Assembly: GCA_017440585.1 (NCBI GenBank)
Contig: JAFSGW010000099.1
Span: 1-64,000, forward strand
DNA length: 64,000 bases
Source of the DNA: Clostridia bacterium
GTDB lineage: Bacteria > Bacillota > Clostridia > UMGS1883
Direction of reading: 5' to 3'
Every line of letters begins with the position of its first letter. The stretch's first letter is position 1. This document shows positions 304 to 38,640 of this stretch, in pieces. The position numbers were made by a program, and so were the translations under genes. A model generated the notes under the pieces. The model did no database searches, had not been told where the DNA came from, and saw nothing but the letters and a program-made list of their open reading frames with translations.

Positions 304-3300
304 ATGAAAAATCTCAGAAGACTTTTAAGCCTTGTACTGGCAATGGCAATGGTTCTTTCCTTCAACGTGAGTGTTTCTCAGGCGGCAATATATGAAGATG
401 TGCCCGACACTCACAAGTATGCGAAAGCTATTAACCTGCTTTCAGGATTGGGCATTATCAACGGCTACGAAAATGGCGTTTTTAAGCCCGACCACACTAT
501 TACAAGAGCCGAAGCTGCTACAATTATTGTACGTACATTAGGTCTTGCAGACGACGTCAGAATGGGCGACACAATCTTTACGGACGTTGACGGCGACCAC
601 TGGGCATCCGGCTACATCAACATTGCTGTTGAAAACGGCATTATCGATGGTTTCCCCGAGGGTACATTCCTTCCCCAGGACAACGTTACATACGAACAGA
701 TGGTAAAGATGGTTGTTTGTGCTATAGGCCACGACCCTAAGGCGAAAGAGCTTGGCGGTTACCCCGACGGCTTTATCCGTGCAGCAAGCGATGCAAAGGT
801 TACAAAGGGCATTGCAGGCTTAGGCAAGAATCCTGCTCCCAGAGGCCTGGTGGCACAGCTTATCTACAACGCTCTTGAGGTTGAAATGATGGATGCTACA
901 AGCTACAACACAGGCATCCTTGGCACATCCTACACCTACAACGGCAAAACCCTTCTTAATGACTATCTTGACATTGAAAAGGTTGATGCAATAGTAACCG
1001 ATACATATCACACAGGTGAAACCTACTCCCGTCGTGACAAGTTCGTTGAGCTTGAAATTACAGAGGTTTACGGCTTAAAGAACAGAGTGAGCAACTCCCT
1101 TTATGAGGAAGGCGACGTTATCGAATTTGACGAGGGTGCGGCTGAAGAAGCAGGTAACTATCTGGGCAGAGCAATTACCGCTTATGTTGGTGAAGACCGC
1201 GACACCCGTGAGGATAAAATCTTTGCACTCACTATCGACTCCGCAAGAAATGAAGAGGTTGAGGTAACAAAGGAAAAGTTCCACGAAGCAAAGAGTGACG
1301 AAACAGTTATCAGCTACGCAAAGAGAGTTACCGACAAGCGTGTTACAGAGCTTGACCTTGCAAGAGGCGTGACAGTAGTTGTTAATGGTGCAATTGTTAA
1401 CGAGCCCATTACAGACTACTTTGAAGACTTTGACGTAATGACACTTGTTGACAACAACCGTGACAATAAGTACGACTTTATTTTTGTTGACATGTTCAAC
1501 GAAAGCGACGGTGTTGAGTTTGTTGTTGCCGAAATCGAAGAGGACGATGACGTTTACTACTTCGAGGGCAAAACAGGCGAGCTGGAGCTTGACTATGAGG
1601 ACGATAATTCCCTTATCAGAATCATTAAGGACGGCAAGGAGATTGAACCCGACGATATCGAAATTGACGATACAATCACATGCCTTGATGCTTCCAGAAG
1701 CATTATCACAGTTTATGTTTCAAGCGATAAGGTAAAGGGCTACATCGACGAGGTTGACTACGATGAGGATGAATACTACATAAACGATAAGCCGTATGAG
1801 CTTTCCGCAGCATTTGCTGAAGAGCTCAGAGCAGGCGATGAAGGCACCTTCTACCTTAACTACAAGGGTAAGATTGCATACTCCACAGTAGCAAGCCGTG
1901 TTGCAGGCGGTGACTATGTATTCATTGCAAACTACGACACAGAAACACAGTTCTCCAAAACAACCTACCTTGTGCAGGTTATTACAGAAAAGGGCGCAGT
2001 TAAGAGTTACACACTTAAGCCCTCCAAGATGAAGTACGTTGACCACATGGGTAACATGTACAAGAACGTTACTCCCCAGACAGTGTTCGATTATCTTCAG
2101 TTCCACAGAACAAGCCTTTCCAACCGTTACAACGTTCCGGGCTATGTTGGTATTGCCCGTGTAAAGGCTTCTTCTGCAGGTGTTATAAGCGAAATTTACC
2201 TTCCCGGCAGCTATGAAGAATTCTACGAGCAGACAAGATATGCCAACGAAAACAGCAAGGAATACTCCGCAAAGAGAGAAACCTACGGTAACTACGACCT
2301 TGACGGTGACACAGTAGCCTTCCGTGTGGACGACTCCGAGGAGGTTATTTCCGAGGCTGTTGAAGCAGGCACGGTAGATTCCTTCTTCACAGACGGCAGC
2401 AGCTACTGCTTCATCGCATACGGCGAACGTAACGAAGACATTGAAGCACTTGTTATCACAGACGGCATTGCAACAGCAAATTATCAGGACCATGCAATGA
2501 TTGTTACAAAGGTTTCCACAGTAAGAGTTGGCAGCGAAACAACAACAAAGCTTACAGGCCGTCAGGGAGATAGCGACGTAACATACCTTGTTGACCCCGA
2601 CGAAAACTTCCGTGTTGAAGTGGGTAACATTATCCTTGTTTCCGAAAACGCAGAAGGCTTTGTAGATGAGCTTGAGGTGGTTGCTTCCACAACAGATGAT
2701 GCCGACGACCTTTATGAAGCCTTTGACAATGCCGACATCCCCTCCGATGAGGATGCAGGCGTTTACGGCGGTATGGTTTCCGACACTACATCCAAGAGAT
2801 TCAGAATTGAAGGCATTGAAGATGCTTTCTACAACGATACAAAGACAGCATATCATCTTATTGACTACACTCTCAGAGAAACAACCTTCACAAAGGGCAG
2901 ATTCTCCGATATTAAGTTAACAAGCAGATACGACACCTTCGTTGTTGTAAGAACATACGAGGACAATGCTGTTGACGTATTTATCTTCCGTGTGGAAGCA
3001 GGCGAATACGATGTTCCCTCCACAGATATCTGGGATAACATGAGCTCCGCAGAGCCTACAGACGAGCCCACTGAGGAAGCTACAACAGAAGAGCCTACAG
3101 AAGCTCCCACAGCTGCACCTACTGTGGCTACAGAAGCAACAGAGGCTCCCACAGCTGCACCTACTGAAGCTACAGAAGCAACAGAGGCTCCTACAGCTGC
3201 ACCTACTGAAGCTACAGAAGCAACAGAGGCTCCTACAGCTGCACCTACTGAAGCTACAGAAGCAACAGAGGCTCCCACAGCTGCACCTACTGAGGCTACA

Positions 3301-3930
3301 GAAGCAACAGAGGCTCCCACAGCTGCACCTACTGAAGCTACAGAAGCAACAGAGGCTCCCACAGCTGCACCTACTGAAGCTACAGAAGCAACAGAGGCTC
3401 CTACAGCAGCACCTACTGAGGCTACAGAAGCAACAGAGGCTCCCACGGCTGCACCCACAGAAGGCCCCACAGTGGCTGTAACAGAGCCCACAACAGAGCC
3501 TTCCACAGATGGCCCCATCCTTGCAGAGGTTAAGAAGGTTACTGTTGATGAAAAAATGGCTGAGGCTGTATTGAAGCTTATCAATGCAGAAAGAGCTAAA
3601 TTAAACCTTCCCGCACTTGTATGGGATAAGGATGTTGCAAAGGTTTCCGAAGCACACTGTGTTGACATGGCAACAAATAAGTACCTTGACCAGAAGAACA
3701 AGGCAGGATTTGACCTTGCAAAGAGGCTTACAGAGGCAAAGATTAAGTTTACTGCATCTGCCGAAAATCTTGCACAGGGCAAGTTCACAGCCGAGGTTAT
3801 TGTAAATGCCTGGATGAAGAGCGAAAAGCATAAGGCAAACATTGTAAACAAGGACTTCACAAAGGTGGGTATCAGCGTTGCAACAGCAATTGACGGTACT
3901 GTATACTGGACAGTAGACTTTGTTAAATAA
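304..3930 (+). CDS. SLH-domain surface protein with Thr/Pro/Ala repeat linker and C-terminal CAP domain
   Basis: A 1208-aa secreted wall-associated protein. Residues 1-28 are a signal peptide. Two clear SLH repeats follow (about 30-80 and 92-145, with motifs such as FKPDHTITRAEAATIIVRTL) plus a weaker third to about 195; SLH domains normally bind pyruvylated wall polymers. Residues about 200-910 are acidic and related to the 908-aa SLH protein at 35914 (both have TGI.G..Y and IEKVDA/LEKVDA segments), so the two are paralogs. Residues about 915-1060 are a linker with eight copies of a 14-aa TEA/APTAAP unit. Residues about 1080-1208 resemble the CAP/SCP-like family (LINAERAKLNLPAL, VGISVA), often found in secreted proteins of spore formers. 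RBS aaaggaga lies just before the ATG. A terminator follows at 3966. Confidence 0.9.
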   Translation: MKNLRRLLSLVLAMAMVLSFNVSVSQAAIYEDVPDTHKYAKAINLLSGLGIINGYENGVFKPDHTITRAEAATIIVRTLGLADDVRMGDTIFTDVDGDHWASGYINIAVENGIIDGFPEGTFLPQDNVTYEQMVKMVVCAIGHDPKAKELGGYPDGFIRAASDAKVTKGIAGLGKNPAPRGLVAQLIYNALEVEMMDATSYNTGILGTSYTYNGKTLLNDYLDIEKVDAIVTDTYHTGETYSRRDKFVELEITEVYGLKNRVSNSLYEEGDVIEFDEGAAEEAGNYLGRAITAYVGEDRDTREDKIFALTIDSARNEEVEVTKEKFHEAKSDETVISYAKRVTDKRVTELDLARGVTVVVNGAIVNEPITDYFEDFDVMTLVDNNRDNKYDFIFVDMFNESDGVEFVVAEIEEDDDVYYFEGKTGELELDYEDDNSLIRIIKDGKEIEPDDIEIDDTITCLDASRSIITVYVSSDKVKGYIDEVDYDEDEYYINDKPYELSAAFAEELRAGDEGTFYLNYKGKIAYSTVASRVAGGDYVFIANYDTETQFSKTTYLVQVITEKGAVKSYTLKPSKMKYVDHMGNMYKNVTPQTVFDYLQFHRTSLSNRYNVPGYVGIARVKASSAGVISEIYLPGSYEEFYEQTRYANENSKEYSAKRETYGNYDLDGDTVAFRVDDSEEVISEAVEAGTVDSFFTDGSSYCFIAYGERNEDIEALVITDGIATANYQDHAMIVTKVSTVRVGSETTTKLTGRQGDSDVTYLVDPDENFRVEVGNIILVSENAEGFVDELEVVASTTDDADDLYEAFDNADIPSDEDAGVYGGMVSDTTSKRFRIEGIEDAFYNDTKTAYHLIDYTLRETTFTKGRFSDIKLTSRYDTFVVVRTYEDNAVDVFIFRVEAGEYDVPSTDIWDNMSSAEPTDEPTEEATTEEPTEAPTAAPTVATEATEAPTAAPTEATEATEAPTAAPTEATEATEAPTAAPTEATEATEAPTAAPTEATEATEAPTAAPTEATEATEAPTAAPTEATEATEAPTAAPTEATEATEAPTAAPTEGPTVAVTEPTTEPSTDGPILAEVKKVTVDEKMAEAVLKLINAERAKLNLPALVWDKDVAKVSEAHCVDMATNKYLDQKNKAGFDLAKRLTEAKIKFTASAENLAQGKFTAEVIVNAWMKSEKHKANIVNKDFTKVGISVATAIDGTVYWTVDFVK
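3123..3460 (+). repeat. 42-bp tandem repeat coding TEATEAPTAAP linker, 8 copies
   Basis: A 42-bp unit (14 codons) is repeated eight times in frame with few silent differences (cct/ccc, gaa/gag). It codes a flexible Thr/Pro/Ala/Glu spacer between the wall-bound part and the CAP domain. Near-identity between units suggests recent expansion or homogenisation, so copy number could vary between strains. Confidence 0.9.
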
Positions 3931-10333: not shown

Positions 10334-11026
10334 ATGAGCACAAAAAAGATACTTGTAGTTGAAGACGAAAAGCCTATTTCTGACATTTTAAAGTTTAATT
10401 TAGAGAAAAGCGGATACGAGGTTATTTGTGCCTACGACGGTGAGGACGGCATGAATAAGGCACTTAGTGAAAGCATTGACTTAATGCTTCTTGACGTTAT
10501 GCTTCCCAAGATGGAAGGCTTTGACGTTTTGAAAAGGGTGAGAGAGAAAAAGCAGAACGTGCCCATCCTTATGCTTACGGCACGTGAAGAAGAGGTTGAT
10601 AAAATTTTAGGGCTGGAGTGGGGCGCAGATGACTATATCACAAAGCCCTTTTCCATGCGTGAGCTTTTAGCACGTGTTAAGGCAAATTTACGCCGCACAG
10701 TTACGGAAAACGAGCCTACGGTAAGTGAAATTGCCTCCTTCGGCAACCTTGCAATTAACTATTCACGCTATGAGGTTACAAAAAATTCGGAAATTGTTGA
10801 GCTTACCTTACGTGAGTTTGAGCTTTTAAAGTTTTTGTCTACACAGCCCGGCATGGTGTTCTCCCGTGAAATGCTTCTTGAGAAGGTTTGGGGCTATGAA
10901 TACTTCGGTGACGTGAGAACCGTGGACGTTACCATCAGAAGACTGCGTGAAAAAATTGAGGATGACCCGGCACATCCCCTTATTATCATGACAAAGAGGG
11001 GTATCGGGTATTATTTGAACAAGTAG
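10334..11026 (+). CDS. walR: response regulator WalR/YycF
   Basis: A 230-aa OmpR/PhoB-type response regulator. The receiver domain (about 1-120) has VVEDEKPISDILKFNLEKSG, the phospho-acceptor Asp in LMLLDVMLP and the switch lysine in ADDYITKPFSMRELLARV. The winged-helix domain (about 130-230) has LTLREFELLKFL and RTVDVTIRRLREKIEDDP. The receiver matches WalR (YycF) closely, and walK, yycH and yycI follow, so the assignment is firm. WalR normally controls wall hydrolases. Its stop codon TAG is part of the GTAG tag of a REP palindrome at 11023. Confidence 0.93.
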   Translation: MSTKKILVVEDEKPISDILKFNLEKSGYEVICAYDGEDGMNKALSESIDLMLLDVMLPKMEGFDVLKRVREKKQNVPILMLTAREEEVDKILGLEWGADDYITKPFSMRELLARVKANLRRTVTENEPTVSEIASFGNLAINYSRYEVTKNSEIVELTLREFELLKFLSTQPGMVFSREMLLEKVWGYEYFGDVRTVDVTIRRLREKIEDDPAHPLIIMTKRGIGYYLNK

Positions 11027-11045
11027 GGGCGACCATTGGTCGCCC
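11023..11045 (+). repeat. REP palindrome overlapping the walR stop codon
   Basis: GTAG followed by gggcgaccattggtcgccc (one extra G). The TAG of the tag is the walR stop codon. Confidence 0.85.
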
Positions 11046-11101
11046 GTGTTGCAACAAATGATAAAAGTAAATTAAAGCCGTAAAAAGGGCAGGTATTTTG
11101 T

Positions 11102-12865
11102 ATGTTTAAGAGTATTCAGTGGAAAATAATAACGATTTTTCTTCTGCTTACACTATTGGTTATGATAGTTGTAGGTACTTTTCTGCTGCAGAATATTTCT
11201 GCCTATTACCATGACGATTTTGCAACGACCCTTTCTGCCCAGGCATTTACCCCTGCGGTTTGCAGTGAGCTTGACACGGCGGCAAGGAGCATGGACCCAA
11301 TAGGTGAAATAACCGAGATTATGAACGTGTATTCCATCCGTATGATGATTGACTCCTACCGCAATTACTACATTCTTTCCTCGGACGGGGCAAGGGTATT
11401 GTCATCAAGCGACCCTTTTTCGCCTTCCTCGGTGGATATTACCCCTAACCTTATTTCTGCCATGGACGGCAAGGTTGGCAGTGTTATAGACCGTTCTGCA
11501 AGCTATATGGACTATGCCTACCCCATAAGTGTACGGGGCGAGGTAAATTACATTGCGTATATCGTGGACAGCAAGGATGAGCTTTACGACATTATCCGAA
11601 ACATTTTCATAAACATTTTGTGGGCACTTGTTTTCGGCATGCTCATCAGTGCCTTTTTAGGTCTTATTTTATCACGAACAATCATTATGCCCATCTCCAA
11701 CCTGCAGATAAGGGCAGAACAGCTCTCCGAGGGTGAGTTCGGGCACAGAATAGAAGTGAGAAGCCGTGACGAAATCGGCAGGCTTACAATGGCATTTAAC
11801 GATATGGCATCACGTATTGACCGGAGTTTGTCTGACATTTCTGCCGAAAAGAACAAGGTTGAGGCAATCCTCAGCCAGATGACAGACGGCATTGTTGCCT
11901 TTGACCAGACGGGGGAAATGATTCACTCCAACAGTGCGGCAAGGGAGCTCTCCGGGGTTGACTACGGGGCAGACTTCAAGGATTTTGTAAAGGCGATTAA
12001 TGTTGACCTTACCTTAGAGCAGCTTAACTACCTTGACCGTAACCGTGTTGTTGAAAGGCAGTGCGAAATAGGCAAGAGAATAATAAGAGTGCTTTTTGCA
12101 CCCTATGCCGACGAAGAGGACAAAAACGGCGGTACCGTTGTTGTTATGCAGGATATTACCGAGCAGACAAAGCTTGACATGGCAAGACGTGAATTTGTGG
12201 CAAATGTTTCCCACGAATTAAGAACACCCATTACCACAATAAAGAGCTATGCAGAAACAATCCTTGACATGGCTGAGGAGGAAACTCCCGAAACGGGCTT
12301 CATAAAGGTTATTGAGCAGGAAGCGGACAGAATGACAAGGATTGTTACCGACCTTCTTACCCTTTCAAGGCTTGATAACTCCTCAAAGCAGGCACTGGAC
12401 AAAAAGGTCTTCGACCTTGCATCTTTGGTTGAAAACGTTGTGCAGAAGCTTAAAATTAATGCCAATAACTTAGGGCTTACCCTTTCCTTTGAAAAGGAGG
12501 GGGACACCTCCGCCTTCTACGGTGATCAGGACCGTATGGAGCAGGTTATAACAAACATTGTTTCAAATGCTGTAAAATACACTCCCTCAGGGGGAAACGT
12601 GCGTGTTTCCTGCTCGGCTAAATATACCGAGGCTGTCATTTGTGTTGCAGACGACGGCATAGGCATTCCCGAAAAGGACCTGCCCCGTATTTTTGAACGC
12701 TTTTACCGTGTGGATAAAGCCAGAAGCCGTGAAAGCGGCGGCACGGGTCTAGGTCTTGCAATTGCCAAGGAGCTTGTGGAAATGCACGGCGGCAGAATAG
12801 AAATAAAGAGCCGTGAGGGCAAGGGTACAAGCGTTATTATAAAGGTGCCGATGATAAACGTGTAA
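11102..12865 (+). CDS. walK: sensor histidine kinase WalK/YycG
   Basis: A 587-aa membrane sensor kinase. One transmembrane helix at about 10-30, an extracellular domain of about 135 residues, a second helix at about 168-190, then HAMP (SNLQIRAEQLSEGEFGHRI), a PAS domain (about 250-355), the HisKA box with phospho-acceptor His near residue 370 (REFVANVSHELRTPITTIKS) and the ATPase domain (DQDRMEQVITNIVSNAVKYT, DDGIGIPEKDLPRIFERFYR, GGTGLGLAIAKELVEMHGG). This order is that of WalK, which senses wall synthesis state and phosphorylates WalR. RBS is weak: aaagggcag at 11086 before the ATG at 11102. Confidence 0.93.
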   Translation: MFKSIQWKIITIFLLLTLLVMIVVGTFLLQNISAYYHDDFATTLSAQAFTPAVCSELDTAARSMDPIGEITEIMNVYSIRMMIDSYRNYYILSSDGARVLSSSDPFSPSSVDITPNLISAMDGKVGSVIDRSASYMDYAYPISVRGEVNYIAYIVDSKDELYDIIRNIFINILWALVFGMLISAFLGLILSRTIIMPISNLQIRAEQLSEGEFGHRIEVRSRDEIGRLTMAFNDMASRIDRSLSDISAEKNKVEAILSQMTDGIVAFDQTGEMIHSNSAARELSGVDYGADFKDFVKAINVDLTLEQLNYLDRNRVVERQCEIGKRIIRVLFAPYADEEDKNGGTVVVMQDITEQTKLDMARREFVANVSHELRTPITTIKSYAETILDMAEEETPETGFIKVIEQEADRMTRIVTDLLTLSRLDNSSKQALDKKVFDLASLVENVVQKLKINANNLGLTLSFEKEGDTSAFYGDQDRMEQVITNIVSNAVKYTPSGGNVRVSCSAKYTEAVICVADDGIGIPEKDLPRIFERFYRVDKARSRESGGTGLGLAIAKELVEMHGGRIEIKSREGKGTSVIIKVPMINV

Positions 12866-12879
12866 TTAATTAGCAATTA

Positions 12880-12935
12880 GCAATGAGTAATGAGCAATTA
12901 AGGAAAGAATTTTGCGAGCAAAATTCGATTAGAAC
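12880..12935. repeat. AT-rich dispersed repeat with gaattttgc hairpin
   Basis: Iterated words such as attagcaat and aatgagcaatt, followed by hairpin gaattttgc-ga-gcaaaattc (12907-12926). Similar tracts occur at 3933-3960, 56537-56558, 57268-57360 and 60118-60185. Confidence 0.55.
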
Positions 12936-12960
12936 ACTCTGCACTGAAGGCATCGCTCAC

Positions 12961-13117
12961 AAAAATTGTTCAGAATTGACAAACCGAAGGAAAACACGGT
13001 GTCCGCCCCGTGTTTGACCGTTGCCCGAAGGCGTACATAGGTACGCCGAGAGGTGAGGTTTGTCGATAACAAAAAGGCATAATATAAAAGAAAAATATTG
13101 CTTCTGCGATATTTTTC
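12961..13117. ncRNA. conserved structured element, copy B
   Basis: Same architecture as 6165-6320. P1 is gacaaacc (12978-12985) with ggtttgtc (13057-13064); one pair has changed from T-A to C-G relative to copy A. P2 is aaacacgg (12992-12999) with ccgtgttt (13008-13015) around the identical loop tgtccgcc. P3 is ggcgtac (13030-13036) with gtacgcc (13041-13047). P4 is gaaaaatattgc (13090-13101) with gcgatatttttc (13106-13117), unrelated in sequence to P4 of copy A but still paired. It lies between walK and the secreted-protein gene; strand and function unknown. Confidence 0.6.
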
Positions 13118-13249
13118 CACATTAATAATGAATATGGAATTCGCTTTGTCAATTTATTTGCTTTTTGCAGACAGAGGATTGTCATGAGGATGCGAAAAAT
13201 TGCCTTTTTGTGGTCTGGACAATTTTTTGTAATAGAGCGTTAAAGTGTC

Positions 13250-13282
13250 TGTTATTGTTTTGTAACATTAGTAGTGTATAAT
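13250..13282 (+). promoter_or_regulatory. promoter with WalR-box match before secreted-protein gene
   Basis: TGTTAT-tgttt-TGTAAC at 13250-13266 fits the published WalR consensus TGTWAH-N5-TGTWAH exactly. A sigma-A -10 (TATAAT, 13277-13282) lies just downstream with a weak -35 (TTGTTT, 13255-13260) inside the box. A further half-site TGTAAT lies at 13228-13233. The gene it serves sits inside the wal locus, which strengthens the call. Confidence 0.65.
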
Positions 13283-13324
13283 GAGTATGAGGATTAATGG
13301 AGTATCCTCGCGGAGGTATGGGTT

Positions 13325-13804
13325 ATGAGAAAATCTATTATTTCCGTGCTCTTGGTTTTTGTATTCATTATGACCGCTTCATTGTCGGTTTTTGCACATC
13401 CTGCAACCCTGGCAGACGGAAGAGAGAGTACGGCTTCCAACTTAATAACAATCAAAAAGCCTGACACCGCTTCAACCTCCACCGTAAAGACAACTTATTC
13501 TGTTACGGGTGTTGGTAAAGAGGGTGTGAGCATTTGTATATATACCTATAACGGCTCTGAATATGTTCCCCAGAAGGACGAAAGCGGTGCAGTGGCTACA
13601 TATACAATAGGCTCCTCGGGCGTGTTTTACCGCCAGATTGCACTTAAGGAAGGCGAAAACCGCATTTGCGTGCGTGCCGAAGCAGATAACGGAAGCTATC
13701 AGCTCAGTTATCTCACCATAACAGTTGTTAACAGCTCTGTTATGTCGGATATAAGCTCATTTTCTTTGAATATGCAATCCAAGCTTAATGGTTGGCTTAA
13801 CTGA
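13325..13804 (+). CDS. small secreted protein in the wal locus, unknown function
   Basis: A 159-aa protein with a signal peptide (about 1-24, ending VFAHP). The rest is Thr/Ser-rich and predicted to be mostly beta: TYSVTGVGKEGVSICIYTY, IALKEGENRICVRAEA, SYLTITVVNSS look like an Ig-like or cadherin-type sandwich, as in wall-binding modules. I do not recognise a named family. It lies between walK and yycH, has its own promoter with a WalR-box match, and its own terminator, so it may be a WalR-regulated wall protein. RBS gcggagg precedes the ATG. Confidence 0.75.
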   Translation: MRKSIISVLLVFVFIMTASLSVFAHPATLADGRESTASNLITIKKPDTASTSTVKTTYSVTGVGKEGVSICIYTYNGSEYVPQKDESGAVATYTIGSSGVFYRQIALKEGENRICVRAEADNGSYQLSYLTITVVNSSVMSDISSFSLNMQSKLNGWLN

Positions 13805-13817
13805 GAGTAACGAAAAA

Positions 13818-13853
13818 GAGGGTTGTTGCATTAAGCAATAACCCTTTTTTTTG
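13818..13853 (+). terminator. terminator between secreted-protein gene and yycH
   Basis: Stem agggttgttgc/gcaataaccct with loop attaa and eight Ts. Confidence 0.85.
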
Positions 13854-13871
13854 AATACGGGGTGAAATGTT

Positions 13872-15284
13872 ATGTTTAAGGAAAAAGTTAAAACCTCAAT
13901 AATTATCGTGCTTATCATAAACCTTGTGTTTTTAACATATCATTCCTGGTTTAAGAGTGGCATTTTAGGCTCCGACTGGCCCTATTTTTCCCTTTCGGAC
14001 CTTCCTGTTGCACGGCTTTTCCAGCGCAACAGCTTTGTTAGCGTGCCTAAGGAAAACCTTTCAAAGCCAAGGAAAATTGTTGTGAACGACGGCGAATTGT
14101 GGGTGCCCTATTATAACAGTGACGATGCCTTTGACCGCCTTGACGAAAATGTTGAGGTTGTAATGAAGTGTCTTCTTGATAAGGGGGCAAAGGAAGAGGA
14201 AAAAATTAACTATACAGAATGGATAAATCTTCTTACCCAGAAAAGCGTGTATGTGGAATACCCTATCACCTTTGAACCCAGAATGCTGGCAATGGTGCTT
14301 AATGCTGATTTTGAAAAGCTTCCCTCGGGCATAAGCGTTATAAACGACGTAATCATTATCCCCACGGAGGAGGATAACAGGGTACAGGTTGCCGTAAGAG
14401 ATGCAGTCACAAACGAGGCGTACACCTTCATCGTGGAGGACGATACAATTTCCTTCCCCCAGGAGGTTCTGGCAATGTATACCGATAAGTACAGCCGTGA
14501 CGGGTACTATGAATTTGCCTTTAACACCCTTATAGGTGAAGGTCTTGGCGAAAATAAAATAAAGGTCTCTGATTTAGTGCTTTTTTCCGACAACGAGTCT
14601 GTATACCGTGACATAAAGGGCACAAACCCCCTTACGGGAAAAGGCCATGAAAAGCTTCTGGAAACCTTTTCCTTTAACCCCAAGCCCCTTCGTTACTACC
14701 CTGATGCATTTGGTGCCGATAACTATGTTGAAAACTATGCCACGGTCACAATTTTCCCCGACGGGTACATTGAATACAGTGCCGTAGATCAGGAAAAGGG
14801 TATTGATCTTGACGTTGGCGGTGAAAACGAATACGAGCTTTTGAACCGTGCTATTGACTTTGCGGAAAAGGTGTGGGCATCGGTATCAAACGAGCCATTG
14901 GAGGTACTGGTGTCGGGCATTGAGAGAACAGAGGAAGGCAACCGCTTTGTGCTTGACTATTACTACGGTGGCCGTGAAATTGCCGTGGAAATTTCAAAGG
15001 AGGGCAGAGAAAAGCTGTACCATGCCATTGAAATTGAAACAAAGGGCAACAAAATTGTTCTGTACAGACAGTATTTAAGAAGCTACACCGAGGCAGATAC
15101 TGCAACAAGCCAGGAAAGCTTTATGCTTGCCCTTGACTATTTTGTGGGGCAGTTTGCATCGGAATACGGCGTAATAACCGATTTATACCCCGGGTATTTT
15201 GACTCAGGCTCGGAGGAAGACATTTTAAAAACAACCTGGCTTTGCGAAAAGAACAATTCCGAAGAGAGGTACCCGAAAAGATAA
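13872..15284 (+). CDS. yycH: YycH, regulator of the WalRK system
   Basis: A 470-aa protein anchored by one N-terminal helix (TSIIIVLIINLVFLTYHSW) with an extracytoplasmic remainder, typical of YycH. In Bacillus, YycH and YycI bind WalK in the membrane and modulate its activity. Identification rests on topology, length, position after walK and before yycI, and family-like segments (NAD.EKLPSGISVINDVIIIP, VENYATVTIFPDGYIEYSA). RBS ggggtgaaa precedes the ATG. The stop codon TAA is the first three bases of a MITE-like element (15282-15558) that separates it from yycI. Confidence 0.82.
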   Translation: MFKEKVKTSIIIVLIINLVFLTYHSWFKSGILGSDWPYFSLSDLPVARLFQRNSFVSVPKENLSKPRKIVVNDGELWVPYYNSDDAFDRLDENVEVVMKCLLDKGAKEEEKINYTEWINLLTQKSVYVEYPITFEPRMLAMVLNADFEKLPSGISVINDVIIIPTEEDNRVQVAVRDAVTNEAYTFIVEDDTISFPQEVLAMYTDKYSRDGYYEFAFNTLIGEGLGENKIKVSDLVLFSDNESVYRDIKGTNPLTGKGHEKLLETFSFNPKPLRYYPDAFGADNYVENYATVTIFPDGYIEYSAVDQEKGIDLDVGGENEYELLNRAIDFAEKVWASVSNEPLEVLVSGIERTEEGNRFVLDYYYGGREIAVEISKEGREKLYHAIEIETKGNKIVLYRQYLRSYTEADTATSQESFMLALDYFVGQFASEYGVITDLYPGYFDSGSEEDILKTTWLCEKNNSEERYPKR

Positions 15285-15558
15285 GGTGAGGAGAGTCGAA
15301 CCCAATATGGTTTTAATCGGCAAATTTTCCGCCATAGGGCACCAAAATGCTCGACTATACGTCAGTATAGTCTCCGCTTTTAGCATCCTCTGACAAAAAA
15401 TTTGCTCGATTAAAACTCTGCGACCCTTTCCTTAGGGAAAATTGATGGATTTTTGGCGCGGAGCTTGCCGATAGGCTGGCGCCTTTCAAAAGCGACAAGC
15501 CGAAAAGGCGCAATTTTAGCAAGGAAAGGGCATATGGGGTTCAACTCCCCTCACCTTA
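15282..15558. mobile_element. MITE-like element with terminal inverted repeats, copy 2
   Basis: A 277-bp element. The left end taaggtgaggagagtcgaac and the right end (gttcaactcccctcacctta) are imperfect inverted repeats of about 28 bp with terminal TA. Internally, ttttaatcggcaaatttt pairs with aaaaaatttgctcgattaaaa, actata pairs with tatagt, and ggcgc with gcgcc. It matches 1-241 with 3 differences. It fills the whole space between yycH and yycI, supplies the yycH stop codon and ends 4 bases into the yycI RBS region. Small size, no coding, ends of TA and near-identical copies fit a MITE; no matching transposase is in the window. Confidence 0.75.
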
Positions 15559-15570
15559 AGGAGGAATTTT

Positions 15571-16323
15571 ATGAACTGGTCAAAAATTAAAAACATAATG
15601 ATAATAATTTTAGTTCTTACAAACCTCTTTCTTATACTGAACATCGCATTTTCAAGATATATGTCCCAGGCACTGCCCGAGGGCGTGGGGGAAAGCTTTG
15701 AAAACATTCTTTCAAAGCACGGCATAACCATCGACGAAAAGGTTGTGCCCACCCTTTACGAAATGAGAAGCACAATAAAGGCATCTGCCTTTGATATTGA
15801 CTATTTAACAAGCGTTTTCATAGGCGAAAAGGTGCAGTATGTAAGTGAGGGCGGAAGCCTTGTGGCACCGGGTAACGATAAAAAGCTTACGGTCAGGGCG
15901 GACAAAATTGAGTTTACCACCTTAAAGCCCACTGTGGAAAAGGACGAGAGAGACATTCTTGATGCCTTAAAGCATCTTGAGCTGGGCGGCGAAGGCATGT
16001 TTTATGACGATATAACAGGCTATGTTAAAATGGCGGTAGACTCCATCGAAATAGAGGGCATGTACCTTGATGTTTACCTTGACAAGGATGGGGAAATTGC
16101 CTCCCTCTCCGGCGTGTGGCCAAAAATTGAGGTGGATACCTACAAGGAAAAGGTTTCCCTTATCCAGGCGGTAAATTCAATCATTGTTCAGCTTCCCAAG
16201 GGTAGCCACATAACAGAGGTTGAAAAGGCATTTGTGCTTGACCGTGCCAGTGACGGATTTCTGGTTAAAAACGCTTGGCGTGTGTATAACCAGGGACGCG
16301 GGTATTTATGTTACCTTCGGTAA
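15571..16323 (+). CDS. yycI: YycI, regulator of the WalRK system, C terminus altered
   Basis: A 250-aa protein with an N-terminal membrane anchor (IMIIILVLTNLFLILNIAF) and an extracytoplasmic domain, with the YycI signature near the end (KNAWRVYNQGRGY). In relatives the Trp-Arg-Val motif is followed by roughly ten more residues; here the frame runs at once into a hairpin array and ends YLCYLR, so the natural end was probably replaced. RBS aaggagg directly follows the MITE-like element. The yycJ gene that usually comes next is absent. Confidence 0.8.
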   Translation: MNWSKIKNIMIIILVLTNLFLILNIAFSRYMSQALPEGVGESFENILSKHGITIDEKVVPTLYEMRSTIKASAFDIDYLTSVFIGEKVQYVSEGGSLVAPGNDKKLTVRADKIEFTTLKPTVEKDERDILDALKHLELGGEGMFYDDITGYVKMAVDSIEIEGMYLDVYLDKDGEIASLSGVWPKIEVDTYKEKVSLIQAVNSIIVQLPKGSHITEVEKAFVLDRASDGFLVKNAWRVYNQGRGYLCYLR

Positions 16324-35590: not shown

Positions 35591-35650
35591 CTGTAATAAA
35601 AGGGTGGTTGAGAGTGACTTATGTTACAATCAATTACCCTTTTATTACAG
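35591..35650 (+). terminator. long inverted repeat after DUF975-like gene
   Basis: ctgtaataaaagggt (35591-35605) pairs with acccttttattacag (35636-35650), with a 30-base loop. It could terminate the upstream gene. The right arm contributes to the first WalR-box match. Confidence 0.5.
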
Positions 35651-35693
35651 TCTAATTACAGCTGTTGACTTTTATAAAGGCAGCCATTAAAAT
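35644..35693 (+). promoter_or_regulatory. S-layer gene promoter P1 with WalR-box match
   Basis: Minus-strand TGTAAT-tagac-TGTAAT at 35660-35644 is an exact fit to TGTWAH-N5-TGTWAH. Four bases later comes -35 TTGACT (35665-35670), 17-bp spacer, -10 TAAAAT (35688-35693). Confidence 0.65.
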
Positions 35694-35740
35694 ACAAATT
35701 GAGGTTAGGCACCGCGTTTGTTACAGTATGTTATGGAAAT

Positions 35741-35801
35741 TTTACAGTTTTATTACAGATGGAAATAACTTATTGACTACAAAAAAATCAGGTGCTATAA
35801 T
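35741..35801 (+). promoter_or_regulatory. S-layer gene promoter P2 with WalR-box match
   Basis: Minus-strand TGTAAT-aaaac-TGTAAA at 35757-35741 fits the WalR consensus exactly. Then -35 TTGACT (35773-35778), 17-bp spacer, -10 TATAAT (35796-35801). This is a near-perfect promoter, as expected for an abundant surface protein. Confidence 0.7.
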
Positions 35802-35807
35802 CCGAGT

Positions 35808-35913
35808 ATAGTCAGGATGCGAATCCTGTCGAAGCGCAGATGCTTTTTTGAAAGCGGAAGCAGCTGTGCCAAACAAGATTTGCTTTCAAAAAATTTTAAG
35901 GAGGATTTGAGAC
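35808..35913 (+). promoter_or_regulatory. structured 5' leader of the S-layer-like mRNA
   Basis: The leader of about 105 bases has a hairpin caggat/atcctg (35813-35828) and a long-range helix tttttgaaagc (35847-35857) with gctttcaaaaa (35882-35892), just before the RBS aaggagg. Stable leaders of this kind prolong S-layer mRNA life in other bacteria. Confidence 0.5.
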
Positions 35914-38640
35914 ATGAGAAATCTCAAAAAAGTTCTTGCATTAGTAGTAGCAGTAGCTATGATCGCTTCCATGGGTCTTGTTGCTTCCGCAGCTTCCTAC
36001 AGCGACGTTGCTGCTAACGCTTCTTATGCAGATGCAGTTAACCTTCTTTCTAACCTTGGTATCATCAAGGGTTACGAAGACGGTACATTCAAGCCCGACA
36101 ACACAGTTACAAGAGCAGAAGCTGCTACAATGATCGTACGTATGCTCGCACTTGATGACGAAGTTGAAGCAGGCGACACAAACTTTACAGACGTTGCAGC
36201 TGATAACTGGGCTTCCGGTTATGTAAACGTTGCATACGCTAACGGTATCATCAATGGTATGGGCGATGGCACATTCAACCCCAACGGTGAAGTAACATAC
36301 GGCCAGATCGTTAAGATGATCGTTTGCGCACTTGGTTATGAACCCGTTGCTCTTGCAAACGGCGGTTACCTCGGTGGCGGTTACCTCTACGCAGGTTCTT
36401 CTCAGGTAACAGGTTTCACAAAGGGTGTTTCCGGTACAGCTAACGCTGCAGCTTCCAGAGCTACAGTTGCTAGACTTATCTACAACGCACTTGAAGTTGA
36501 AATCATGGACCAGAAGTCCTTCTCTACAGGTATCAACGGTTCCACATACGAAGTTCTTGAAAACAAGACAATCCTTTCTGAGTACCTCGAACTCGAAAAG
36601 GTTGATGCAGTAGTTGTTGGCACATACCTTTCCAGCGCTCAGTACGACGCTGAAGAAGAAATGACAGTTGACGTAGTTGTTACAAAGAGCTACGCTGACG
36701 AAGAAGTTGCTGTTTACGAAGCAGGCGACGAACTCACTCTTCTTGCTGAAGGTACAGATGCTGCTACTCTTCTCGGTTACACAGTAACAGCTTATGTTGG
36801 CGAAAACGAAGACGGCGATGAAGCTATCTTTGCAGTAGCTCCCAAGGCTAAGAAGAACAGCACACTTACACTTGATGCTGACCTCATTAAGGAATTTGAC
36901 GGTGAAAACCTTGTATACTACAAGAGCGAATCCGCTAAGTCCACATCTGAAGCTGAAGTTCAGGCATTTGTTGAATTCAAGGATATCGAAGATGTTGCTA
37001 CAGCTAACATCGTAGTTAACGGTTTCAACGCTGACTATGAACTTTGCACAATGGGTACAGTTGACACAGCTGAAGAAGTTACATTCCTTGATAACGATGG
37101 CGACGGCGACTACGAATTCGTATTCGTAACAGTTCCCTCTGAAAACGCTGTTGAATTCGTTGTAGCTACAGCTGAAAACGATGACGAAATCTGGACATGG
37201 GCTGATGAAGACGAAGAAGAAGATTTCGAAATCGACGAAGAAGACGATACAAAGCTTTACACAATCATTAAGGACGGCAAGATTGCTGACGCTGCAGCTA
37301 TCGCTGAAGGCGACGTTCTCACAGTTCTTGATGACACAGTAAACGTTGTTACAGTATACGTTTCCTCTAAGCAGGTTGAAGGCACAGTTGACGAAGTAGA
37401 CGATGACGTTTACACAATCGCTGGTGCTGAATACGAAGTATGCCCCATCTCCGCTGGCGTAGTTGGCGAAATCGAAGCTGGTGACGAAGGTATCTTCTAC
37501 ATCAACGCTATGGGCAAGATCGCTGCTGTTGAAACAGTTTCCACAATTGCTAACGCTGACTACGTATACGTAATCGCAGCAGAAGCTAAGGAAGGCGACT
37601 TCGGTAAGTTCGAATACCGCGTAAAGGTTGTTACAGCTGCAGGCGCAGTAGAAGTTCTTACAATCAAGTCCAAGAAGGTTGACGTTTACACAGCTGAAGC
37701 AGCTTTCGAAGACGTTGACGCTGTAGAAGCTTTCGAAGAAATCGAAAACTATGTTGGTATCGCAAGAATCGATACAACAGCTGCTGGTGAACTCTCCGTT
37801 ATCTACCTTCCCGGTTCTGAAGAAGACTTCGCAGTTGAAGCTATCTATGAAACAGACGCTGCAGACGAAAACAAGTTCTACAACGAAGCTCGTGGCACAT
37901 ACGGTGTAGTTGACCTTGCTGCTGAAACACTCGTATTCGAAATCTCTGATGACGAAGACGAAGATCTCGAAGACAGAATCACTGTTACAACAGTTGGTAA
38001 GTCCTTCGTTGACGAAGCTTCCTACAGCTTCACAGCATACGGCGAAGCTGAAGAAGTTGCAGACGTTCTCGTAGTAACAGCTGGTAACACAGCAGTTAAC
38101 ACAGAAGCTCCTGTAATGGTAGTTACAAAGGTATCCGACGTTGTTGTTGACGACGAAGATACAATCAAGGTAACAGGTATCGTTGCTGGTGAAAAGGTTT
38201 CCGTAATCGTTGATCCCGATGAAACAGTTGACGTTGAAAAGGGTAACGTAATCCTTTACGTTGAAGCTGGCGAATTCGTAGAAGACGTTGTAGTTCTCTT
38301 CACATCTGATGATGAAACTGTAGGTGACCTCTTCGCAGGTAACGACGACATCGCTCTCGAAGTTGCTGACGACGATAAGGTTTCCGTACACTACGGCGAA
38401 ATCATGGAAAAGTCTTCCAAGAAGGTTACAATCGCTGAAGATGTATTCTACTTTGCTGATGAAGTTAACGTAACAGTAGTTGACTACTGCGGCGCTAGCG
38501 TATCCATCGCTAAGGGTAGCCTTAACAGCGTTAAGACTTCTACAGACAAGTACGTAAGAACTGCTTTCGTTAAGACAGCTGCTGAAGTTGAAGACGAAAT
38601 CACAGACGTAGTAGTATTTGTTACTCCTGTTGAAGAATAA
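35914..38640 (+). CDS. major SLH-domain surface (S-layer-like) protein
   Basis: A 908-aa secreted acidic protein. Signal peptide at 1-27 (ALVVAVAMIASMGLVASAAS). SLH repeats lie at about 28-78 and 90-143 (EDGTFKPDNTVTRAEAATMI, FTDVAADNWASGYVNVAYAN), with a weaker third to about 195. The remaining 700 residues are rich in Glu, Asp, Val and Thr and match the SLH-CAP protein at 304 across its length, but lack the Thr/Pro linker and CAP domain. Codon use is strongly biased (gct, gaa, gtt, aca), a sign of high expression. Two strong promoters with WalR-box matches drive it. This is probably the main S-layer protein. Confidence 0.88.
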   Translation: MRNLKKVLALVVAVAMIASMGLVASAASYSDVAANASYADAVNLLSNLGIIKGYEDGTFKPDNTVTRAEAATMIVRMLALDDEVEAGDTNFTDVAADNWASGYVNVAYANGIINGMGDGTFNPNGEVTYGQIVKMIVCALGYEPVALANGGYLGGGYLYAGSSQVTGFTKGVSGTANAAASRATVARLIYNALEVEIMDQKSFSTGINGSTYEVLENKTILSEYLELEKVDAVVVGTYLSSAQYDAEEEMTVDVVVTKSYADEEVAVYEAGDELTLLAEGTDAATLLGYTVTAYVGENEDGDEAIFAVAPKAKKNSTLTLDADLIKEFDGENLVYYKSESAKSTSEAEVQAFVEFKDIEDVATANIVVNGFNADYELCTMGTVDTAEEVTFLDNDGDGDYEFVFVTVPSENAVEFVVATAENDDEIWTWADEDEEEDFEIDEEDDTKLYTIIKDGKIADAAAIAEGDVLTVLDDTVNVVTVYVSSKQVEGTVDEVDDDVYTIAGAEYEVCPISAGVVGEIEAGDEGIFYINAMGKIAAVETVSTIANADYVYVIAAEAKEGDFGKFEYRVKVVTAAGAVEVLTIKSKKVDVYTAEAAFEDVDAVEAFEEIENYVGIARIDTTAAGELSVIYLPGSEEDFAVEAIYETDAADENKFYNEARGTYGVVDLAAETLVFEISDDEDEDLEDRITVTTVGKSFVDEASYSFTAYGEAEEVADVLVVTAGNTAVNTEAPVMVVTKVSDVVVDDEDTIKVTGIVAGEKVSVIVDPDETVDVEKGNVILYVEAGEFVEDVVVLFTSDDETVGDLFAGNDDIALEVADDDKVSVHYGEIMEKSSKKVTIAEDVFYFADEVNVTVVDYCGASVSIAKGSLNSVKTSTDKYVRTAFVKTAAEVEDEITDVVVFVTPVEE

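Follow-up and report, generated by a model that had tools for sequence, protein, structure and literature searches.

In many cells the S-layer protein ranks with the most abundant proteins, and its synthesis has to keep pace with newly formed wall surface. How could a bacterium connect the two? This question is raised by a gene for an S-layer-like protein in a 64-kb window (the whole stretch of 64,000 nucleotides analyzed here), which is preceded by two tandem promoters and by two matches to the binding consensus of WalR, a response regulator of the cell wall that is essential. The first-pass annotation had proposed that WalR may control the S layer in addition to wall hydrolases. From comparison with related genomes, we consider it likely, with good confidence, that these boxes serve as WalR-type operators through which transcription of the principal S-layer gene is activated. 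The features on which the argument draws are the following.

10334..11026, plus strand: probable walR (yycF), an OmpR-family response regulator, by profile and structure scores
11102..12865, plus strand: probable walK, a HAMP-PAS-HisKA-HATPase sensor kinase, by profile scores
35623..35660, minus strand: distal array of four half-sites with 5' bases at 35660, 35649, 35638 (degenerate) and 35628
35644..35660, minus strand: distal WalR-type box TGTAATTAGACTGTAAT, TGTAAT-N5-TGTAAT, 4 bp upstream of the P1 −35; in this genome and one congener
35665..35693, plus strand: promoter P1, TTGACT, 17 bp, TAAAAT; TTGACT-17-TACAAT in the congener
35720..35757, minus strand: proximal array of four half-sites with 5' bases at 35757, 35746, 35735 (degenerate) and 35725; same array in the congener
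35741..35757, minus strand: proximal WalR-type box TGTAATAAAACTGTAAA, TGTAAT-N5-TGTAAA, 15 bp upstream of the P2 −35; deeply conserved
35773..35801, plus strand: promoter P2, TTGACT, 17 bp spacer ending in TGC, TATAAT; extended −10 (TGn), conserved in relatives
35808..35913, plus strand: predicted 5' untranslated leader from P2, 106 nt, with its start placed 7 nt after the −10
35813..35828, plus strand: 5' hairpin CAGGAT-GCGA-ATCCTG, read from the sequence; not part of the minimum free energy fold of the leader
35834..35887, plus strand: H-type pseudoknot A-B-A'-B', from comparison (A 35834-35845 with A' 35858-35869; B 35850-35855 with B' 35882-35887)
35898..35904, plus strand: Shine-Dalgarno sequence AAGGAGG, read from the sequence
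35914..38640, plus strand: S-layer-like protein of 908 aa with a signal peptide-like start and SLH domains

Both boxes are present at the positions and on the strand given by the first-pass annotation, and both fit the direct repeat TGTWAH-N5-TGTWAH of WalR-regulated promoters exactly. Each also lies upstream of a −35 hexamer, as do the sites of the activated class of WalR promoters, with a gap of 4 or 14–15 bp in the units described below. The description of the boxes as standing just before a −35 holds loosely, since the distal gap is 4 bp and the proximal gap 15 bp; the two differ by 11 bp, or one helical turn. At 21 bp, each box is followed by another TGTAAC half-site, with a degenerate half-site (GGTAAT or CATAAC) in between, so that each box forms the gene-proximal half of an array spaced by 11, 11 and about 10 bp. 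This fourfold arrangement is not class-wide, as TTACA is rare at the corresponding offsets upstream. P1 and P2 are both sigma-A-like. The proximal box and P2 make up a widely conserved unit, and the combination of distal box and P1 was seen only here and in the one congener. The two promoters may respond differently, as the first-pass annotation suggested. The same one-turn shift occurs before a distant S-layer gene in another genome (L030 in G053), where a 4-bp gap separates the box from a full-consensus promoter.

The SLH domains of the 908-aa protein score 98.6 bits against a Pfam cut-off of 20.8. From these domains, the signal peptide-like start and the conserved strong promoter, we infer that the product is a lattice-forming S-layer protein. 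A second SLH gene of the window (304-3930), 41% identical to the S-layer gene, has no box in the 303 upstream bases that the window contains.

Could such short motifs be chance matches in AT-rich intergenic DNA? The excess in the window alone is modest: TGTWAH-N5-TGTWAH occurs three times against 0.42 expected, and 1 of 100 shuffles also reached three. The third match (13250-13266) lies on the coding strand downstream of walK, shortly before an open reading frame at 13325. Over the whole genome, TGTAAY-N5-TGTAAH gives eight matches and the reversed control none. Two of the eight are the S-layer boxes, two fall inside open reading frames and the others are scattered between genes. We rejected the idea of a general WalR regulon in this genome, as no wall hydrolase with a box was found among these eight matches or among the amidase relatives. 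Searches for ribosomal protein L14 and EF-Tu domain 3 found neither in this assembly, which is 93% complete and thus appears to be without those regions. In 21 genomes of the family, TGTAAY-N5-TGTAAW matches 68 times and its reverse 18 times (sums over rows). Seventeen of the 68 are S-layer hits, including two near contig ends, one with its gene not visible (L067) and one with its gene found by protein search (L087). The motif is not equally common in non-promoter DNA: 29 of the 51 non-S-layer matches in the family are intergenic, even though coding sequence makes up about 91% of the DNA fetched.

Relatives, too, speak against chance. A protein search of 60 genomes led to 30 S-layer loci, and the box is present in 22 of them, always in the same orientation, on the strand opposite to the gene and 108 to 254 bp before its start. 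Among the eight loci without it, two belong to more distant SLH paralogues with 42% identity (L012 and L013), one is a plain absence (L032), and five come from matches that do not begin at the start codon, so that the upstream window may miss the promoter (L034–L038). Of 24 box-promoter units, 18 have a gap of 15 bp between box and −35, three have one of 14 bp and three have one of 4 bp; the −35 reads TTGAC followed by G, T or A, and the units with 14–15 bp end in TGn-TATAAT, once in TGn-TATGAT. As a composite, box, −35 and −10 occur in 112 of 391 Clostridia genomes, and the reversed control in none. A stricter pattern applied to a phylum-wide draw matched 10 of 398 genomes, namely this one and nine from two families outside the class. 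Ten SLH-bearing genomes chosen from ten families all contain box plus TTGAC (control 0), directly upstream of an SLH gene in nine; in the tenth (G042) the match is on another contig. The boxes at S-layer promoters are not chance: box, orientation and spacing are all conserved, the composite has no control matches in 391 genomes, and the probability we leave to coincidence is negligible.

A scan of named genomes recovered at least 118 stretches with the composite, and the 80 listed include Alkaliphilus, Tissierella, Sporosalibacterium, Caloranaerobacter, Fervidicola and Thermovorax. An open reading frame of at least 60 aa follows in 75 of these 80 loci, and its first 420 aa were scanned. Among the matches listed, 42 of the 75 frames contain SLH domains. 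The 33 without an SLH hit in this N-terminal stretch count against our reading; they comprise, among the matches listed, 8 RtcB proteins, 4 and 2 proteins with bacterial Ig-like domains, and a remainder with single or no hits. At the eight RtcB (RNA ligase) loci, which include several Ruminococcus flavefaciens and also other Clostridia, the composite is followed by a leader of 166-200 nt.

Having established that the boxes are real, we turn to the protein that may bind them. As the first-pass annotation had pointed out, a fitting regulator is encoded in the same window (10334-11026), followed by its putative kinase (11102-12865). Against the NCBIfam model for YycF (NF040534), the regulator scores 327.5 bits, below the curated cut-off of 340, and for this reason we call it probable WalR; YycF is nevertheless its nearest family by about 90 bits, with MtrA next at 236.2. 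The kinase likewise stays below the cut-off for WalK (481.9 bits against 725 for NF033092), which is its best match of all families listed. Compared with solved structures, the DNA-binding domain of the regulator scores 122.4 bits to VicR, 121.9 to YycF and 119.9 to WalR, and about 60 to PhoB. A stretch of 21 residues containing the recognition helix is identical to that of S. aureus WalR (2zxj), which makes it a WalR-type helix. No walHIJ neighbors recognized by NCBIfam or Pfam were found downstream of walRK (window 10334-16323).

The boxes themselves agree with this assignment. Position 17 of the WalR consensus was left free in the scans, and G is found there in 0 of 69 S-layer-type promoters at a background of about 0.155; position 6, left free in a loose scan, has G in 0 of 26 promoters. 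Both absences agree with the "H" of the consensus, with a weight that is lowered by the relatedness of the sequences. In eight loci of the family, a wall amidase of the Amidase_3 type is also preceded by the box in the same orientation; the name was read from four full sequences and from the similar starts of the other four. The wall-amidase relatives in the genome studied here and in G002 are without a box. Further matches lie upstream of small HPr-like proteins (five loci) and near a CdaR-like regulator gene (three genomes of one genus), all named by sequence reading.

The box might instead be bound by a different member of the OmpR/PhoB family that shares the direct-repeat geometry, such as a PhoP/PnpR-type protein or a WalR-like paralogue encoded on contig C76. 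The genome contains six OmpR-type regulators, the one in the window and five others. Of the five that were scanned against the YycF model, that of the window scores best (327.5 bits), and next comes the C76 paralogue, which reaches 262.6 bits and has a similar helix. The half-site of PhoP is TTHACA, which would demand T at a position where the S-layer boxes have A, G and T about equally. The one plausible pst promoter inspected in this genome, that of pstS, has TTAACC repeats instead of this box, and PhoP-type binding would also have to be reconciled with the recurrence of the box before wall amidases. Direct repeats of 11 bp are nevertheless common to the family. Cyanobacterial RpaB reads TTACA repeats (PMC6331805). 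We regard another regulator as unlikely and WalR as the best candidate. Comparison of box, spacing and promoters across relatives lends strong support to the proposal that the S layer, too, may be under WalR control.

How might WalR act at these promoters? WalR sites of S. aureus that lie upstream of the −35 are associated with activation, whatever their orientation (PMC10746227). RpaB, too, is an activator when its site lies ahead of the core promoter (PMC6331805). Because these two regulators activate from upstream sites, activation is the likely mode at the S-layer promoters. We propose that WalR~P would bind the TGTAAH-N5-TGTAAH direct repeat on one helical face; in this genus, two dimers in tandem would probably occupy the four half-sites. 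From a position 15 bp upstream of the P2 −35, the bound protein would help RNA polymerase at a strong extended −10 promoter, and the second, genus-level copy would act likewise at P1, one helical turn closer. S-layer synthesis would then be coupled to the WalK signal that sets wall-hydrolase expression.

Binding by WalR could also lead to repression, or serve only to balance P1 against P2. WalR is able to repress in other species (PMC10746227), and at this locus the proximal array is located downstream of P1, so that transcription from P1 must cross it and could be blocked by WalR bound there. Yet each box is upstream of its own −35, which is where sites associated with activation lie in S. 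aureus, and P1 is confined to the genus level, whereas the unit of box and P2 is widespread in the class. Repression or balancing therefore appears quite improbable to us, and activation by WalR is the mode that we carry forward.

Transcripts from these promoters would carry a conserved leader with a pseudoknot; it ends immediately upstream of the Shine-Dalgarno sequence and probably stabilizes the mRNA or tunes its translation. In the leaders of relatives, an H-type pseudoknot ends before an A/T-rich stretch that is followed by the Shine-Dalgarno sequence. In an alignment of 20 leaders (A2), 84.5% of the cells pair, compared to 40-53% with slid partners, and two-sided changes occur at 8 of 14 pairs. 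In 14 more distant leaders (A3), 79.1% pair, compared to 31-49% with slid partners, with two-sided changes at 12 of 24 pairs; most of the support comes from helix A, at 86.4%, with 66.4% for the weaker helix B. RNAalifold found helix A in A3 unaided. Leaders for A2 and A3 were picked by hand for likeness and the structures written from one member each, which somewhat favors these percentages. A further set of 11 Tissierellia-like leaders (A4) aligned poorly and was left out of the count.

A covariance model built from 19 leader cores matches the window at 35824-35889. At E values up to 0.01 it finds 14 of the 60 relatives, each on the sense strand and upstream of an SLH gene, together with three antisense echoes at the same places as sense matches. 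Three of the 14 lie outside the training set (G002, G027 and G043), and the one in G043 is not a close copy and precedes an SLH gene that also carries the box. Weaker matches (E 0.015-0.1) were seemingly unrelated where inspected. Pseudoknot prediction from the window's own leader is weak, with 11 of 20 shuffles as good, and so the case for the pseudoknot rests on comparison. Among 83 leaders, counting duplicates and those of genes other than S-layer genes, 43 scored above every one of 20 shuffles, 11 were equalled by a single shuffle, and 15 did no better than the shuffles. Three short leaders (L014, L017 and L022) have no A-B-A'-B' pattern. The leader has no match in Rfam, either at the gathering threshold or as a credible weak hit.

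The retention of a WalR-type site before S-layer genes in many Clostridia points to a coupling between coat production and wall growth, and its fixed spacing offers a direct, testable link between the two. With sites of this kind, the regulon of WalR would extend to genes other than those for hydrolases, and the S-layer mRNA would have a second control point in its conserved leader RNA. As a tentative extension, on balance doubtful, the S-layer gene may be the most conserved WalR target across Clostridia and part of a two-stage module: WalR would set transcription by the status of the wall, and translation or stability would be set by the pseudoknotted leader, acting as an RNA sensor of a ligand or a protein, either a riboswitch or an autogenous sensor of S-layer or wall. 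Such a module would match coat supply to wall surface at both levels.

The closest known system is the WalR (YycF/VicR) regulon of Bacillota. The locus resembles it in the TGTWAH-N5-TGTWAH repeat, in the walRK genes encoded here, in the same box before wall amidases of the family, and in the placement of the site ahead of the −35, which is also found at activated genes (PMC10746227). It differs in its target, the main SLH S-layer gene, in a spacing locked at 14-15 bp, in the extended −10 and, in this genus, in the four half-sites per promoter. A second comparison is with Clostridioides difficile, where the cwp genes are of the CWB2 type. Overexpression there revealed that WalR raises six of them, cwp2, -5, -12, -16, -17 and -66, and an influence of WalR on the S-layer of B. 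anthracis was suggested earlier, as cited in the same paper (PMC9210968). WalR action on S-layer genes is thus not new in kind. Both in C. difficile and here an S-layer gene is the target, in our case by predicted sites; the difference lies in SLH genes with a conserved promoter site. Cyanobacterial RpaB and its HLR1 element share an OmpR-family regulator, TTACA direct repeats and activation from upstream of the core promoter. RpaB, however, belongs to another phylum and controls photosystem and high-light genes (PMC6331805). The leader, finally, may be the published "SLH motif", a riboswitch candidate upstream of SLH-protein genes in Synergistaceae, Clostridia and Negativicutes (Stav et al. 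2019; PMC6429828); the likeness lies in a structured RNA placed before SLH-protein genes. Searches of open PMC text for WalR and S-layer gave mostly incidental mentions, judged by title, and those for YycF/VicR and S-layer protein or for SLH and a regulator binding motif gave nothing on SLH promoters among the matches listed. In the same text, no paper was found on an S-layer together with a pseudoknot or untranslated region in Clostridia, nor on a conserved WalR-type site at fixed spacing in SLH promoters across Clostridia, joined to a structured leader. Set against these systems, what appears new is the depth of conservation and the architecture of the link between WalR and the S-layer.
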